A stretch of DNA of 64,000 nt. Source: Rhodocytophaga rosea (GTDB taxonomy: Bacteria > Bacteroidota > Bacteroidia > Cytophagales > 172606-1). The translations under genes and the position numbers were made by a program. This document shows, piece by piece, positions 2,371-8,427 of the stretch. The DNA lies in the NCBI RefSeq assembly GCF_010119975.1, contig NZ_CP048222.1:3242501-3306500 (forward strand), written 5' to 3'. A model generated the notes under the pieces. It saw only the letters and a list, made by a program, of their open reading frames with translations. It did not search any database and had not been told where the DNA came from. Within the stretch, counting starts at the first letter, position 1. Each line of letters starts with the position of its first letter.

Positions 2371-2379
2371 TATTTTGAT

Positions 2380-2413
2380 AAAAGAAAACGCACCGGTTAA
2401 CCACTCCGGTGCG
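2380..2413 (-). terminator. Rho-independent terminator of the tRNA-like RNA (minus strand)
   Basis: A perfect 8-bp stem is formed by 2389-2396 (CGCACCGG) and 2406-2413 (CCGGTGCG). On the minus strand it is followed by TTTTCTTTT. It lies about 50 nt beyond the 3' end of the tRNA-like fold and would end a minus-strand transcript. Confidence 0.8.
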
Positions 2414-2462
2414 CACCTTACACTTCATCAACAAACTAAAAACCAAATAAATTATTAAATTG

Positions 2463-2603
2463 CTGTAGGAGAAGGGCTCGAACCTTCACGGAGCAGTTAG
2501 CCATAGCTCAAAATTGATTAGTGGTCAACCCGTTAAGCTACGTTTATCCCTTACCTCCACCCCCGAGACAGGAGGGCACGTCTGCCAATTTCATCACCCT
2601 ACA
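2463..2603 (-). tRNA. tRNA-like RNA with class II (Leu-type) body and ~72-nt variable region
   Basis: The minus strand folds into all four tRNA arms. The 7-bp acceptor pairs TGTAGGG (2603-2597) with TCCTACA (2470-2464). The D arm is ATG/CGT around AAATTGGCAGA, as in bacterial tRNA-Leu. The anticodon arm is CCCTC/GGGGG with loop CTGTCTC. The T arm is GAAGG/CCTTC with loop TTCGAGC. CCA is not encoded. The variable arm has the Leu layout (T, 4-bp stem GGAG/CTCC, GT), but the stem encloses 61 nt instead of 3-4, and part of that insert can pair with itself (CGTAGCT/AGCTATG). By position the anticodon is GUC (Asp), with an unusual U37. It has its own promoter and terminator. It could be a specialised tRNA, a tRNA-like regulatory RNA or a decayed tRNA. 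Confidence 0.6.
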
Positions 2604-2628: not shown

Positions 2629-2660
2629 CAAAACTAATATACTTTACATTATTTTGCAAA
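2629..2660 (-). promoter_or_regulatory. Bacteroidota-type promoter of the tRNA-like RNA
   Basis: On the minus strand TTTG (2660-2657) is followed after 20 nt by TAGTTTTG (2636-2629). This matches the Bacteroidota -33 TTTG / -7 TAnnTTTG promoter with normal spacing. Transcription should start near 2622, leaving a leader of about 18 nt before the acceptor stem. Confidence 0.7.
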
Positions 2661-2745: not shown

Positions 2746-3234
2746 ATGGACAAAAATTTAGAAATTGACAATGTAGATCTGCAGATCCTGTCTTTGCTGA
2801 TGGAAGATGCCAATATGCCCTACACAGAGATTGGTAAAAAAGTATTTGTTTCCGGGGGTACGGTGCATGTACGCATGAACAAAATGGAGCAAATGGGAAT
2901 CGTAAAAGGTGCCCAGCTCGTGATCGATTATGCGAAATTAGGCTGGGACATCAGTGCATTTCTAGGCATCTACCTCGACAAAAGCTCCTTATATGAGGAG
3001 GTTTCTAAAGAATTGGAAAAAATTCCTGAAGTGGTGAATGCGCATTATACCACAGGAAATTATAGTATCTTTGCCAAGATCATTTGCCGTGACACCCAGC
3101 ATCTGCGGGAAGTACTTCACGACAAAATTCAGAAAGTAAAAGGCATACAACGTACAGAAACATTTATTTCATTGGATGAAAGTATTAACCGCTCGATTCC
3201 TTTACATAAAAAAGAAAACACAGTATTAAAATAA
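2746..3234 (+). CDS. Lrp/AsnC family transcriptional regulator
   Basis: 162 residues. The N-terminal winged helix-turn-helix covers about residues 8-65 (LQILSLLMEDANMPYTEIGK, then 'GGTVHVRMNKMEQMGIV'). A RAM/AsnC effector-binding domain follows at about 75-150. Length and layout are those of Lrp/AsnC proteins, which form dimers and octamers and usually sense amino acids. The recognition helix contains the unusual 'VSGGTVHVR'. The start is the ATG at 2746 in a very AT-rich stretch. It precedes the suf cluster by 160 bp on the same strand, which makes it a candidate local regulator, though nothing in the sequence proves this. The effector is unknown. Confidence 0.9.
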   Translation: MDKNLEIDNVDLQILSLLMEDANMPYTEIGKKVFVSGGTVHVRMNKMEQMGIVKGAQLVIDYAKLGWDISAFLGIYLDKSSLYEEVSKELEKIPEVVNAHYTTGNYSIFAKIICRDTQHLREVLHDKIQKVKGIQRTETFISLDESINRSIPLHKKENTVLK

Positions 3235-3394: not shown

Positions 3395-4840
3395 ATGAGC
3401 AAAGACACTCAGTTACTGGAGAATATTACGCAGTCGGAATATAAGTATGGCTTTGAGACGAAGATTGAGGCGGATGCCGCACCTAAAGGTTTAAGCGAAG
3501 ATATTGTACGGTTTATTTCCAATAAAAAGAATGAACCCCAATGGATGCTGGAATGGCGGCTAAAAGCCTACAAAACCTGGCTTACCATGCAGGAACCCAG
3601 GTGGCCGAATGTAAAATATCCAGAAATTAACTACCAGGATATTATTTACTACTCAGCTCCCAAACAGAAAATCAAACCAAACAGCCTCGACGAGATTGAT
3701 CCTGAATTGAGAGCTACTTTTGAAAAATTAGGCATTTCCTTAGACGAACAAAAACGACTGACCGGAGTTGCGGTGGATGCTGTAATTGATAGTGTATCTA
3801 TTGCTACCACTTTTAAAAAGAAGCTGGGCGAACTGGGTATTATCTTCTGCTCGATGAGCGAAGCAGTTGAAAATCACCCGGAACTAGTCAAAAAATACAT
3901 AGGCTCGGTTGTACCAGCTGGTGATAATTATTTTGCTGCCCTGAATTCAGCCGTATTTAGTGATGGTTCTTTCTGTTATATTCCCAAAGGTGTTCGCAGC
4001 CCCATGGAACTGTCTACGTATTTCAGGATCAACGCCGCTAATACTGGCCAGTTTGAACGGACATTAATTGTAGCTGATGAAGGTAGTTATGTGAGTTATC
4101 TGGAAGGTTGTACGGCTCCCATGCGGGACGAAAATCAGCTACATGCGGCCGTAGTAGAGATTGTAGCCCACGAAAAAGCGGAGGTGAAATATTCTACGGT
4201 ACAAAACTGGTATCCCGGAAGCAAAGAAGGCAAAGGCGGTATTTATAACTTTGTAACCAAACGGGGTATTTGTGCCGGAGCCCATTCTAAAATCTCCTGG
4301 ACGCAGGTAGAAACCGGTTCTGCCATTACCTGGAAATATCCATCTGTAATTCTGAAAGGCGATTACTCTATCGGTGAATTTTATTCTGTAGCTGTAACCA
4401 ATAATTACCAGCAGGCAGATACCGGCACTAAAATGATTCACATTGGTAAAAACACCAAAAGCCGGATCGTTTCCAAAGGTATCTCAGCCGGAAAAAGCCA
4501 GAACTCATATAGAGGGTTAGTACGTGTATTACGCCGTGCAGAAAATGCCCGTAATTACTCTCAATGCGACTCTTTGCTGATGGGCGACCGCTGTGGCGCT
4601 CATACGTTCCCTTATATTGAAGTAGATAACCCGACTGCCCAGGTAGAACATGAAGCGACTACTTCTAAAATTGGCGAAGACCAGATTTTCTATTGCAACC
4701 AGCGGGGTATTAATACCGAAACAGCCGTAGCACTTATTGTAAATGGCTATGCGAAAGAAGTATTAAACCAGTTGCCGATGGAATTTGCGGTGGAAGCACA
4801 AAAGCTCTTGGCCGTCAGCCTGGAAGGTAGCGTAGGATAA
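3395..4840 (+). CDS. sufB: Fe-S cluster assembly scaffold SufB
   Basis: 481 residues, the normal SufB length. SufB, SufC and SufD form the SufBC2D scaffold on which Fe-S clusters are built in the cytosol. Family hallmarks include 'YSAPKQK', '[19 protein letters not shown]' and 'YLEGCTAP', plus the C-terminal half of the right-handed parallel beta-helix with '[17 protein letters not shown]'. The C-terminal Cys and Glu/His residues of that core are the cluster assembly region in characterised homologues. It is the first gene of the suf set and is followed by a strong intercistronic terminator-like palindrome before sufC. Confidence 0.97.
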
Positions 4841-4848
4841 AATCTTCT

Positions 4849-4875
4849 AAAGACCTCAAAATTTTGAGGTCTTTT
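4849..4875 (+). terminator. Intercistronic terminator/attenuator between sufB and sufC
   Basis: A perfect 26-bp palindrome (AAAGACCTCAAAA, 4849-4861, with its complement at 4862-4874) ends in a short T run. It lies 9 bp after the sufB stop and 54 bp before sufC, so it could lower expression of the downstream suf genes relative to sufB. Confidence 0.65.
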
Positions 4876-4928
4876 CATACATATATTTTGAGAATAATAC
4901 CAGATTACAACCAAACCTAAGCGTAAAA

Positions 4929-5681
4929 ATGCTAAGTATAAAAAACCTACAAGCCTCTATTGGAGAGAAGCAAATATTGAAGGGCTTGAACCTGGAAGTG
5001 AAAGCAGGCGAAATACATGCGATTATGGGACCAAATGGCTCCGGCAAAAGTACACTCGCTTCCGTACTGGCTGGCCGGGAAGACTATGAAGTAACAGGCG
5101 GAGAAGTATCATTTCAGGGAAAAGATTTGCTGGAACTTTCTCCTGAAGAAAGGGCCAGAGAAGGAATATTTCTAGCTTTTCAATATCCGATTGAGATTCC
5201 CGGCGTAAGTACTACTAACTTCCTGAAAACGGCTGTAAATGAAATCCGCAAATCACGTGGACAGGAACCATTGGATGCGGTTCAGTTCCTGAAAAGAATG
5301 AAGGAAAAAATGAAGCTGGTACATATTGACCAGGCCTTACTCAGCCGCTCTTTGAACGAAGGTTTTTCGGGTGGAGAAAAGAAGCGGAATGAGATATTTC
5401 AGATGGCCATGCTCGAACCAAAACTGGCTATTCTGGACGAAACTGATTCAGGCCTGGATATAGATGCCTTGCGGATTGTAGCAGAAGGCGTAAATCAACT
5501 GCGGACCAAAGAAAATGCAACTATTGTAGTTACCCACTATCAGCGTTTGCTGGATTACATTGTGCCCGATTTTGTGCATGTGCTCTATCAGGGCCGGATT
5601 GTAAAATCAGGTACCAAAGAACTGGCCATGGAGCTCGAAGAAAAAGGCTACGACTGGATAAAAGACGAAGTATCAGTTTAA
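4929..5681 (+). CDS. sufC: Fe-S assembly ATPase SufC
   Basis: 250 residues, an ABC-type ATPase without membrane domains. The Walker A motif GPNGSGKS is at residues 34-41, the signature is '[11 protein letters not shown]', Walker B is '[12 protein letters not shown]', and the switch His is in 'VTHYQR'. SufC powers conformational change of the SufB-SufD pair during Fe-S cluster assembly. It sits between sufB and sufD with 88 and 127 bp gaps. Both gaps contain hairpins followed by T runs, which is unusual within a suf operon. Confidence 0.97.
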
Positions 5682-5738
5682 TTAGTGATCAACTTTTTAG
5701 ACTGTTAATCAGATACAATTAGCCCCAGAGTCAAAGAA

Positions 5739-5768
5739 GATGCTTTGTTTCATTTAAAGCATTTTTTC
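5739..5768 (+). terminator. Terminator-like hairpin between sufC and sufD
   Basis: ATGCTTT (5740-5746) pairs with AAAGCAT (5756-5762) over a 9-nt loop and is followed by TTTTTTC. The stem is short, so read-through is likely. Confidence 0.5.
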
Positions 5769-5808
5769 TTAACGGATAGATTTTAACCAGAATTGATATA
5801 GATAAGTG

Positions 5809-7134
5809 ATGAGCGATACCACCTTATACCAAACCGATTATAAATCAAAATTAGTAGCAGCTTTCGAAAACAGAGAAAAAGTGGCTGATACGGCTGCTTT
5901 ATATACCCGCAGACAGGAAGCCATCCGGCACTTCGACCGCCTGGGTTTTCCTACTACCAAAAACGAGGAATGGAAATACACAGATGTAAAGAATCTGCTT
6001 AAGAAGGATTTTGATTTTACACCTGCCCGGAATACACCAACCATACAACCCGACAAACTACATTCCCTGCTGATACCAGATACTGATGCGAATGTAATTG
6101 TATTTGTAAACGGAGTATTTAACTCTTCACTCTCCAATATAATTAGTCCGGCTGAAGAGCTGACGATACAGGATTTTTCTAAAGCAACCCAAACAAATAC
6201 AGAAATTGTAGAAAAATACTTTGGTACGCTGGCTTCTTATGATAAAGAAGCTTTTACCGCATTAAATACGGCTTTCGCCCGGCATGGCGCTTTTATTCAT
6301 GTGCCGGCTAATAAAGTGGTGAGCAAGCCTGTTATCCTGTATTTTATTGCGGACAGCGAAACACAAGCTGCCGCTGCTATGCCCAGAAATTTGTTTGTAG
6401 CCAGCCGCAATAGCCAGGTAACTATAGTAGAAGCTTTTCTTTCAAAAGGAAACCAGCCAAGTTTTACCAATGTTGTGACGGAAATTGTAGTACAGGAGAA
6501 TGCCAATGTAACCTATACGAAAATCCAGAATGAATCAGAACAATCCTATAATATAGGAACAACACAGGTACATCAGTCCAGAGACAGCAAATTTTCGGCT
6601 ATCACGGTTTCACTAAGCGGCGCTCTGATCCGCAATAATCTCAATATTGTACTGGATGCAGAGAATTGCGAATCTCATTTATATGGCTTATATATGCTAA
6701 ATGGTTCGCAACATGTAGATAACCATACCTTAGTAGATCATGCCAAGCCGCATTCCTATAGCAATGAGTTGTACAAAGGAATTATGGACGATAAATCTAC
6801 TGGTGTGTTCAATGGAAAGATATTTGTCCGGCAGGATGCCCAGAAAACAAATGCTTTCCAGTCCAACAAGAATATATTGCTTTCTAAAGAGGCTTCCATG
6901 AACACCAAACCTCAGCTGGAAATCTTTGCTGATGATGTAAAATGTTCGCATGGCGCTACTACCGGACAACTGGATGAAGATATGTTGTTTTATTTGCGCT
7001 CCAGAGGTATTGGGGTAAATGAAGCCAAAGCTTTATTAATGTATGCATTTGCTGCTGATATTATCAATCAGATTTCGATTGAAGCAATCCGGCTGTATGT
7101 AGAACGAGTAATAGCTAACCGACTCAATCAATAA
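5809..7134 (+). CDS. sufD: Fe-S cluster assembly protein SufD
   Basis: 441 residues from the ATG at 5809; an in-frame GTG lies directly before it, but ATG is preferred. The protein is the SufB paralogue that completes the SufBC2D scaffold. The N-terminus carries the helical segment 'NEEWKYTDVKNLL' typical of SufD. The centre is the beta-helix, and the C-terminus has 'CSHGATTGQLDEDMLFYLRSR', the conserved SufB/SufD signature. It lacks the Cys-rich stretch seen near the end of SufB, as expected for SufD. sufS follows after 69 bp. Confidence 0.95.
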   Translation: MSDTTLYQTDYKSKLVAAFENREKVADTAALYTRRQEAIRHFDRLGFPTTKNEEWKYTDVKNLLKKDFDFTPARNTPTIQPDKLHSLLIPDTDANVIVFVNGVFNSSLSNIISPAEELTIQDFSKATQTNTEIVEKYFGTLASYDKEAFTALNTAFARHGAFIHVPANKVVSKPVILYFIADSETQAAAAMPRNLFVASRNSQVTIVEAFLSKGNQPSFTNVVTEIVVQENANVTYTKIQNESEQSYNIGTTQVHQSRDSKFSAITVSLSGALIRNNLNIVLDAENCESHLYGLYMLNGSQHVDNHTLVDHAKPHSYSNELYKGIMDDKSTGVFNGKIFVRQDAQKTNAFQSNKNILLSKEASMNTKPQLEIFADDVKCSHGATTGQLDEDMLFYLRSRGIGVNEAKALLMYAFAADIINQISIEAIRLYVERVIANRLNQ

Positions 7135-7203
7135 GTGAGTATCACTTAAAATTCTAAATGTTGTGCCATACTTTCTCTGGCATAGTATATAAACAATACT
7201 CCT

Positions 7204-8427
7204 ATGTATAAAGTATTTGATGTGGCCGAAATCCGGAAAGATTTTCCCATTCTCCACCAGACCATTCATGGAAAACCCCTGGTATACTTTGATAATGCAG
7301 CTACCACCCAGAAACCTCAATCTGTGATTCAGGCGCTGAGTGATTACTATAATGAAATCAATGCCAATATCCACAGAGGAATTCATACATTGGCAGAACG
7401 GGCTACCGCAGAATATGAAGCCACCCGCGAAATATCTCGCCAGTTTATCAATGCTTCCTCTACAGAAGAAATTATTTTTACTCGGGGTACCACCGAAGGT
7501 ATCAACCTGGTAGCGGCTACGTTTGGCAAAAGCCTCAAAGCTGGTGATGAAGTGCTGGTTACTACGATGGAACACCATTCCAATATTGTGCCCTGGCAAA
7601 TGCTGTGTGAAGAAAAAGGAGCTACGTTAAAACCCATTCCTATTAATGATGCCGGTGAAGTTATTCTAGAAGAATATGAAAAACTACTGAGCGAAAAAAC
7701 CAAAATCGTAGCCATTGTATACGTTTCTAATAGCCTGGGAACCATCAATCCGGTAAAACAGATGATCGACATGGCGCACCAGCATGGCGCAACTGTATTG
7801 ATAGATGGGGCACAGGCTTCGGCTCACCTGGAAATCAACGTACAGGATCTGGATTGTGATTTCTATGTATTCTCTTCTCATAAGCTGTATGGCCCTACCG
7901 GCGTAGGCGTATTATATGGCAAGAAAGCCTTGCTGGAAGCCATGCCTCCATATCAAGGTGGTGGTGAAATGATTAAAGATGTTTCCTTCACCAGAACAAC
8001 TTATAACGAGTTGCCTTATAAATTTGAAGCTGGTACTCCTAACATTGCCGATACTGTCGCTTTCAAAAAAGCCCTGGAATACATCAATGAAATAGGCAAA
8101 CCAGTGATCAGTGAATATGAACATGAATTACTGACCTATGCAACGGAATCTTTGCAGGAAATAAATGGTTTACGCATTGTAGGTACGGCCAAAGAAAAGA
8201 TCAGTATTGTTTCTTTTATTGTAAAAGGCATACATCACCAGGATATTGGAATTATTCTGGATACACAGGGAATTGCCGTTCGGACTGGGCATCATTGTAC
8301 ACAACCTTTGATGAACCGCTTCGAAATTCCAGGTACTTCCCGTGCTTCGTTTGCGATGTATAACACAAAAGAGGAGATTGACAAACTGGTAAAAGGCCTG
8401 CATAAAGTAATTAAGATGTTTGCGTAA
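7204..8427 (+). CDS. sufS: Cysteine desulfurase SufS (SufS/CsdA type)
   Basis: 407 residues. This PLP enzyme removes sulfur from cysteine as an enzyme persulfide and delivers it to SufE. The cofactor lysine is K227 in 'FSSHKLYGPTG'. The catalytic cysteine is C365 in 'RTGHHCTQP', the position used by group II desulfurases. 'MEHHSN' and 'DGAQASAH' are the other cofactor-binding motifs. The stop codon is 4 bp before the ATG of the Uma2 gene, so the two are likely co-transcribed. Confidence 0.96.
   Translation: MYKVFDVAEIRKDFPILHQTIHGKPLVYFDNAATTQKPQSVIQALSDYYNEINANIHRGIHTLAERATAEYEATREISRQFINASSTEEIIFTRGTTEGINLVAATFGKSLKAGDEVLVTTMEHHSNIVPWQMLCEEKGATLKPIPINDAGEVILEEYEKLLSEKTKIVAIVYVSNSLGTINPVKQMIDMAHQHGATVLIDGAQASAHLEINVQDLDCDFYVFSSHKLYGPTGVGVLYGKKALLEAMPPYQGGGEMIKDVSFTRTTYNELPYKFEAGTPNIADTVAFKKALEYINEIGKPVISEYEHELLTYATESLQEINGLRIVGTAKEKISIVSFIVKGIHHQDIGIILDTQGIAVRTGHHCTQPLMNRFEIPGTSRASFAMYNTKEEIDKLVKGLHKVIKMFA

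Follow-up and report, generated by a model that had tools for sequence, protein, structure and literature searches.

A 64,000-nucleotide stretch of Rhodocytophaga rosea DNA (contig NZ_CP048222.1, positions 3,242,501 to 3,306,500; hereafter the window) encodes on its minus strand, at 2463-2603, a cloverleaf RNA of 141 nt, here called X, whose presence was confirmed. X is probably a dedicated, non-decoding tRNA that would act as the carrier for conversion of aspartate to asparagine under AsnC control and that phages would carry as a metabolic RNA gene. X belongs to an RNA family that has conserved identity signals and an AsnC-like neighbour, co-occurs with GatB and, in the sampled genomes, anti-occurs with canonical AsnB. 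Apparently, this is a large, undescribed RNA family of bacteria and phages. A broader picture, held with slightly less assurance though still favoured, is that a large bacterial group may make asparagine on a purpose-built RNA in which an Asp anticodon is combined with an amidotransferase acceptor identity, decoding has been given up, the RNA gene stands under AsnC control where one for an asparagine synthetase would otherwise be, and phages have picked up the RNA as an auxiliary metabolic one.

Identity signals and degraded decoding features

Asp identity is reported to reside in G73, G34, U35, C36 and C38, to which bacteria add G1-C72 and, as a minor element, G2-C71, and amidation of Asp-tRNAAsn is conferred by U1-A72 and blocked in tRNA-Asp by G1-C72 together with U20a (PMC9976931). 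Among 218 distinct X homologues (157 from hosts and 61 from phages), the determinants for aspartyl-tRNA synthetase (AspRS) G73, U35, C36 and C38 each occur in 218/218 and G34 in 187 (A in 18, C in 10, T in 3). The determinants for the amidotransferase GatCAB are likewise kept, with U1-A72 in 214/218 and base 20a absent from every row looked at; G2-C71 is found in 218/218 and U3-A70 is nearly invariant. X joins the anticodon and discriminator part of Asp identity with the signals for amidation by GatCAB. Judged by eye in the R. rosea genome, tRNA-Asp has G1-C72 and U20a, tRNA-Asn has U1-A72 and U20a, and X has U1-A72 without 20a.

The family lacks the combination of U33 and a purine at position 37 by which its loop was tested for decoding: position 33 is T in 184, G in 22, C in 8 and A in 4 members, and position 37 is T in 205, C in 10, A in 2 and G in 1. 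U37 and the free position 33 suggest that X does not decode. Moreover, an ordinary tRNA-Asp with anticodon GUC is present in the genome of R. rosea, so X is not needed for this purpose.

Structure, evidence for the fold and transcription signals

The features of the locus are as follows.

2463-2603, minus strand: X, tRNA-like RNA, assigned from the cloverleaf and homologues; U1 at 2603, discriminator G73 at 2463
2462, minus strand: C74, the sole encoded base of CCA, present in 218/218 distinct homologues
2597-2603, minus strand: 5' strand of the acceptor stem, pairing with 2464-2470
2581-2591, minus strand: D loop AAATTGGCAGA, with G18G19 followed directly by C20-A21, without base 20a
2560-2576, minus strand: anticodon arm CCCTC-CTGTCTC-GGGGG, with GUC at positions 34-36 and U at 37
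2490-2558, minus strand: variable arm, stem GGAG/CTCC enclosing 61 nt
2543-2550, minus strand: GGGATAAA, 5' side of the conserved internal loop of the variable arm, from the homologue alignment
2496-2500, minus strand: CTAAC, 3' side of the same loop, from the homologue alignment
2521-2531, minus strand: GGGTTGACCAC, distal motif of the variable arm, from pattern counts
2629-2660, minus strand: promoter TTTG...TAGTTTTG, 25 nt before X
2379-2414, minus strand: terminator hairpin with T-rich tail, -17.8 kcal/mol
2746-3234, plus strand: asnC-like regulator, divergent from X; 173 bits to the AsnC model NF008384 and 50 bits to the Lrp model

An earlier note made from the sequence of this stretch had described a complete minus-strand cloverleaf with acceptor, D, anticodon and T arms, a GGAG/CTCC stem holding 61 nt, a positional anticodon GUC followed by U37, a dedicated promoter with 20-bp spacing and a hairpin-T terminator, all of which were found as described. 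The acceptor stem is TGTAGGG/TCCTACA, the D stem ATG/CGT and the T arm GAAGG-TTCGAGC-CCTTC, and features typical of tRNA (RF00005) are present, i.e., stems of 7, 5 and 5 bp, a UUCRA T loop and G18G19. The D loop reads GGCAG or GGTAG in 239 of 240 rows, one non-member being among the 240, and GGCAA in the remaining row. In a few members, the T stem is bulged; copies L006, L009, L024, L082, L010, L011 and L076 appear to have a bulge of 1-2 nt (GGGuuGG vs CCCCC), which is unusual for any tRNA.

Standard tools pass over this RNA. ARAGORN made no tRNA call in the window, and no Rfam 15 family matched X at the gathering score, either in the window or at a further 12 loci examined. Lax-mode Rfam searching gave, over X on the minus strand, only 17.2 bits to tRNA-Sec; lax matches, which lie far under the gathering score and several of which sit on terminator hairpins, were rejected. 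Folding of the single sequence gave a z-score of -0.42, with 67 of 200 shuffles equally good, so it is the comparative evidence that decides. In 60 full-length homologues, 98.3% of the pair cells of the 26-pair structure are standard and 16 of the 26 pairs have changed on both sides, a level of covariation reached by none of 500 shuffles, and pairing falls to 50-60% when partners are slid by 1-3 columns. Across 219 distinct rows, the top eight column pairs by mutual information are base pairs of the structure, and the maximum over all column pairs falls in the basal stem of the variable arm. Thus, homologues with compensatory changes exist, and the alternative that X is a one-off insertion in a normal tRNA gene was not borne out. 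The idea that GUCUC of the loop pairs with GGGAU of the arm was dropped by eye, as the variants do not follow each other; the GGGAU columns lie outside the mutual-information table.

The promoter, TTTG-20-TAGTTTTG, which we take to be of the Bacteroidota type, ends 25 nt upstream of X. Its strict pattern occurs in 28 of 68 intergenic regions between AsnC-type genes and X, whereas mononucleotide shuffles average 0.6, and TAnn(n)TTTG lies 10-90 nt upstream of X in 49 of the 68 (9.7 in shuffles). The terminator consists of GCGCACCGG, 9 nt, CCGGTGCGT and then TTTCTTTT; a general terminator scan, whose loop limit is 8 as against this 9-nt loop, reported none here. As 31 of the 34 other tRNA genes inspected in the R. 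rosea genome also lack a full CCA (they encode C or CC; three encode CCA), the 3' end of X is normal for a tRNA. Between X and the terminator, TAGTTTGTTGATGAAG (2423-2438, minus strand) is conserved in 18 of 240 rows from several genera, and another conserved downstream tail is shared by L027, L081 and L083.

The variable arm and the spread of the family

The earlier note regarded the giant variable arm as the key feature; it lacked the AsnC-like nature of the adjacent gene, the joining of U1-A72 with G73, GUC and C38, the tie to GatCAB and the phage copies. Its view of X as a non-standard tRNA from no described family stood, because the conserved family lies below every Rfam 15 gathering score at the loci named above, whereas the emphasis on the arm proved misplaced. 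Indeed, arm length ranges from GC-GAAA-GC (L077, an RNA of 110 nt) to far longer arms in RNAs of up to 187 nt, and genome G018 has an armless relative of 78 nt that keeps U1-A72, the loop CTATCTC (U35-C36 and C38), G73 and C74. By its common plan, the arm has a basal stem that covaries and an internal loop (GGAUAAA / CUAAC) that is conserved, and its distal part may extend to long hairpins. A subset carries the GGGUUGACCAC motif in the arm. The pattern G-(0-2)-TTGACCAC occurs in 38 of 158 distinct host and 40 of 63 distinct phage sequences, a count that omits near variants such as GGGGTAGACCAC and one non-member phage row. The UUGACC found in a subset of X recalls the Ro-binding stem of bacterial Y RNAs, GGUCCGA/UUGACC; kinship with Y RNAs is a possible reading that was put aside when no 5' partner was seen by eye.

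At E <= 1, a DNA search found matches in 54 of 59 relatives, many at chance level; clear ones (E < 1e-6) came from numerous families of the order and frequently stood in tandem. A pattern scan gave at least 119 genome stretches and 96 viral ones, and the covariance model was run on 80 of each: the genome loci contained 102 complete copies, and X was found in all 80 viral loci (75 complete, 5 cut by the sequence end). Besides phage contigs and one Ignavibacteriales genome, the family occurs in Cytophagales, Saprospiraceae and Chitinophagaceae and in a few records that bear the title Flavobacteriales. Names in the record titles include Hymenobacter, Pontibacter, Spirosoma, Dyadobacter, Algoriphagus, Cyclobacterium, Echinicola and Chitinophaga, as well as Saprospiraceae, Ignavibacteriales UTCHB1, two 'Flavobacteriales' metagenome-assembled genomes and one 'Cellulophaga' strain. 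Of 296 genomes drawn from across the phylum, 31 scored above 90 bits to the covariance model, and none did in family f26 of the draw, guessed to be Flavobacteria-like. The matches above 90 bits and G018 (71.5 bits) were the ones counted as X, a threshold at which other armless members could be missed. A search at E <= 0.01 (290/296) was rejected as unspecific, because in phage loci the matches scoring about 47-54 bits fall on genes that ARAGORN calls as tRNA-Leu; genome matches of 50-62 bits look like these and were excluded.

Distinct-row statistics omit sequences shorter than 108 nt or without a recognisable T loop. Identical copies were left out, as were, in alignment A1, L071 (a run of N), L080 and L085 (contig ends) and L078 (an aberrant arm). 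Of the 219 rows, L248:7681-7830 (49.6 bits, loop GTATATG) is a non-member, which the recount of 218 members excludes; this 150-nt tRNA-like match lies outside the X family in a phage tRNA array and is perhaps an intron-bearing tRNA-Leu. Tandem arrays of X were seen in L175 (Phaeodactylibacter), L008/L061, L030/L063 and G350, with five copies in a row in L175 and in contig C33 of G350, and in some arrays the arms differ between copies.

Two other tRNA oddities were noted in genome G000. At C1:3897501-3897650 (L058, L331), two tRNA-like genes with 8-nt anticodon loops stand 4 nt apart (ARAGORN: tRNA-??? cgag and ctta), and 7 kb from them, at C1:3904935-3905050 (L331), a 116-nt RF00005 match of 50.4 bits has a long insert around the anticodon arm.

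Co-occurrence with GatB and with asparagine and tRNA synthetases

Genome associations were assessed in 80 hand-picked genomes, 45 with X (43 inside the class and 2 outside) and 35 without (16 inside, 19 outside), with the presence of GatCAB scored by GatB alone. GatB was found in 45/45 genomes with X and in one of the 16 class genomes without it (G099). Asparaginyl-tRNA synthetase (AsnRS) was present in 59/59 class genomes, and glutaminyl-tRNA synthetase (GlnRS) in 28/43 class genomes with X, 0/2 with X outside, 15/16 class genomes without X and 9/19 without X outside. Among class genomes that have both enzymes, GatB occurs in 28/28 with X and 0/15 without X. With AsnRS and GlnRS present, such genomes do not need GatCAB to make Asn- or Gln-tRNA.

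Canonical AsnB (query, the NF006949 equivalog) was found in 0/45 genomes with X, in 9/16 class genomes without it (at >=69% identity; G110, a tenth with a 41% match, is uncounted) and in 1/19 outside. Three genomes (G034, G016 and G320) have X, GatB, AsnRS and GlnRS and show no AsnA match and no TIGR01536 protein above the cut-off. Genome G000 encodes three AsnB-like proteins above the TIGR01536 cut-off, none of which reaches the canonical AsnB cut-off, and two of them score higher to the XrtA-type amidotransferase model, under its cut-off. A class genome, G075, has no match to X, GatB, AsnA or TIGR01536 at the limits used and is a possible asparagine auxotroph.

In 151 genomes of family f23, X was found in 92 and GatB in 104 (both in 90, neither in 45, X alone in 2, GatB alone in 14; Fisher p 2e-23, uncorrected for phylogeny); that the X and GatB draws contain the same 151 genomes rests on shared handles.

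The AsnC-like neighbour

An Lrp/AsnC-type gene lies beside X in 72 of 110 host loci, 70 of which were recognised by clustering and 2 more by tblastn. Of the 70 clustered genes, 68 are divergent from X at a distance of 98-328 nt; the two exceptions are L165, where an over-long open reading frame (ORF) call overlaps X, and L018, a duplicate copy without an X row. The AsnC model was the best-scoring one in 11/11 scanned neighbours (173 bits in the window, 140-179 in the ten others). The E. coli asnC and asnA genes are divergent. E. coli AsnC activates asnA, and does so less when asparagine is present (PMC8707732).

Ideas of ribosome rescue or stringent response found no supporting neighbour. Beyond the AsnC-like gene, the window contains genes resembling SufB, SufC, SufD and SufS (3395-8427; named by eye), and Suf-like genes recur in 30 of the 110 host loci.

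Phage copies

In 77 viral loci compared, 38 stretches contain tRNA or tmRNA genes (tmRNA in 7) and 39 contain none; a tRNA lies within 150 nt of X in 26, always on the same strand, and no ARAGORN call overlaps X in any of the 77. Neighbouring genes that by eye resemble terminase, portal, PhoH, ThyX and helicase genes make these stretches look like phages. A blastp search with the window's AsnC against ORFs of the phage stretches gave no match. The window copy of X matched nothing in named phage and plasmid collections, in which the sole phage match to the family is an unannotated copy in LR756504.1, a 636-kb record of an uncultured phage.

Proposed role of X and competing explanations

It can be envisaged that X is transcribed from its own promoter, trimmed like a tRNA and supplied with CCA, after which ordinary AspRS would charge it with aspartate through G73, GUC and C38. 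GatCAB would accept X because of U1-A72 and the missing U20a, and would amidate the bound aspartate to asparagine. Since an Asn-X that decoded GAC/GAU would mistranslate, the hypothesis needs the loss of decoding, and Asn-X would be kept off Asp codons because decoding would be spoiled by U37, by the unconstrained position 33 and, in most members, by the very large variable arm. In the weakest step, hydrolysis would free asparagine from X, for use by AsnRS and by the cell at large. The adjacent AsnC-type regulator presumably adjusts the level of X to asparagine, in the way that E. coli AsnC governs asnA, and X in phages would be an RNA version of an auxiliary metabolic gene.

Several observations weigh against this proposal. 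X has U1-A72 and not the G1-C72 of bacterial tRNA-Asp, which has been called crucial for Asp identity (PMC9976931), and in the 31/218 members with A, C or U at position 34, AspRS should work poorly. The proposal does not account for the GGGUUGACCAC motif or for the conserved internal loop. The AsnC-like neighbours score 140-179 bits, below the curated cut-off of 227, and 38/110 host loci, some of them short or at an edge, have no AsnC gene. The associations of X with GatB are uncorrected for phylogeny in a hand-picked set of 80, the class controls without X come from other orders (14 same-order genomes without clear X by blastn were left out), and GatB occurs in 18/19 genomes without X from other classes. 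In f23, 16/151 genomes are discordant, including 14 with GatB alone (six of them in one small-genome genus) and 2 with X alone. AsnA is found in 4/45 genomes with X (one below the cut-off), compared with 4/16 without X in the class and 1/19 outside, and 42/45 genomes with X encode an AsnB-like protein above the TIGR01536 cut-off, which makes another asparagine synthetase possible there. Finally, phage copies that stand within tRNA sets fit a role in translation as well.

Among the competing explanations, the main one, unlikely in our estimate, is that X is a regulatory decoy, a charged or uncharged mimic of a tRNA that, by binding to AspRS or GatCAB, modulates these enzymes at low asparagine without net asparagine formation. 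The AsnC-like neighbour, the dedicated promoter and terminator, the co-occurrence with GatB and the synthetase and GatCAB signals would suit such a binder equally, whereas C74 in 218/218 members and conservation at the top of the acceptor stem suggest that the 3' end is used, and a decoy does not predict the absence of canonical AsnB from 45/45 genomes with X. Loss of decoding features together with retention of charging signals would also fit a tRNA that passes Asn (or Asp) to a non-ribosomal acceptor, for example a lipid, a peptide or a cell-wall precursor, for which the non-proteinogenic glycine tRNAs of staphylococci offer a model. This appears improbable: no transferase-like gene was seen by eye among the 25 most recurrent neighbour clusters of the 110 host loci, and carriage by phages is harder to account for. 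It is very unlikely that, as in Bdellovibrio, a non-discriminating AspRS loads ordinary tRNAAsn, on which GatCAB then forms Asn, while X is unrelated and merely shares the distribution of GatB. This known route explains GatCAB without X and has been put forward for some genera of Bacteroidetes that lack Asn synthetases (PMC4206432), but it leaves unexplained U1-A72 together with GUC, C38 and G73, the AsnC-like neighbour and the concordance in f23, and the R. rosea tRNA-Asn carries U20a.

Equally slight is the chance that X does decode, as an additional Asp or Asn isoacceptor for GAC/GAU. Most members, and nearly all phage copies, do have U33-G34-U35-C36, and in 26/77 viral loci a same-strand tRNA is close by, yet position 33 is not U in 34/218, position 37 is U in 205/218, position 34 is not G in 31/218, and a normal tRNA-Asp is present. 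The least probable alternative is that X serves glutamine, with Glu charged by glutamyl-tRNA synthetase and amidated to Gln by GatCAB: N34-U35-C36 is a Glu anticodon frame where position 34 is C or U, and U1-A72 is shared with tRNA-Gln, although C38 and G34 belong to Asp identity, the adjacent regulator is of the AsnC kind and the ammonia donor of GatCAB is usually glutamine itself. Other assignments were also weighed. A substrate of seryl-tRNA synthetase is a possible reading in view of the class II arm, G73 and the viral loci, where the nearest tRNA is tRNA-Ser in 12 of the 26 that have one within 150 nt; it was put aside because G1-C72 is absent and the conserved UC and C38 would lack an explanation. 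Class II tRNA-Leu requires A73, and X has G73 in 218/218; tRNA-Sec and allo-tRNA require an extended acceptor or anticodon stem, and those of X have 7 and 5 bp. A tmRNA would have a tag ORF and lack an anticodon arm, but the anticodon arm of X covaries; some of the same phage stretches contain separate tmRNA genes.

If an asparagine-forming carrier is indeed what X is, a tRNA would have moved out of the genetic code into the role of a metabolic cofactor, and Asp and Asn identities would be combinable once decoding is switched off. This would account for the retention of GatCAB without canonical AsnB in many Bacteroidota that have AsnRS and GlnRS, and would close an annotation gap for amino-acid prototrophy. 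Phages would thus carry an RNA as a metabolic gene, the first such case known to us.

Comparison with known systems

In open-access literature other than bioRxiv, as far as listings and excerpts show, no paper was recognised as describing X. The closest canonical RNA, tRNA-Asp (GUC), shares G73, GUC, C38 and G2-C71 with X, which differs in U1-A72, the lack of U20a, U37, a variable position 33, a Leu-like D arm and the giant variable arm. To our knowledge, the pseudo-tRNA tRNAOther of Bacillus cereus is not a multi-family RNA with amidotransferase signals. It resembles X in being a tRNA-like RNA outside translation, but is island-associated, lies inside a larger RNA and responds to iron (PMC3399842). 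The selC* tRNA-Cys and allo-tRNAs are also non-canonical and have long variable arms; however, their acceptor and anticodon stems are longer than the 7-bp and 5-bp stems of X (PMC7609411). With respect to gene arrangement, E. coli asnC-asnA offers a parallel, in that an AsnC-type gene adjoins a gene for asparagine supply (PMC8707732), although the partner of the regulator beside X is an RNA gene and not a synthetase gene. The proposed activity is most reminiscent of the Asn transamidosome (AspRS-GatCAB-tRNAAsn) of Thermus, Deinococcus, Bdellovibrio and Staphylococcus, where Asp is likewise placed on a U1-A72 RNA and amidated by GatCAB, and AsnA/AsnB are missing (PMC4206432, PMC9976931). The RNA of the transamidosome is an ordinary decoding tRNAAsn, and its AspRS must be non-discriminating, whereas X is a separate RNA that has kept the Asp anticodon and seems unable to decode.
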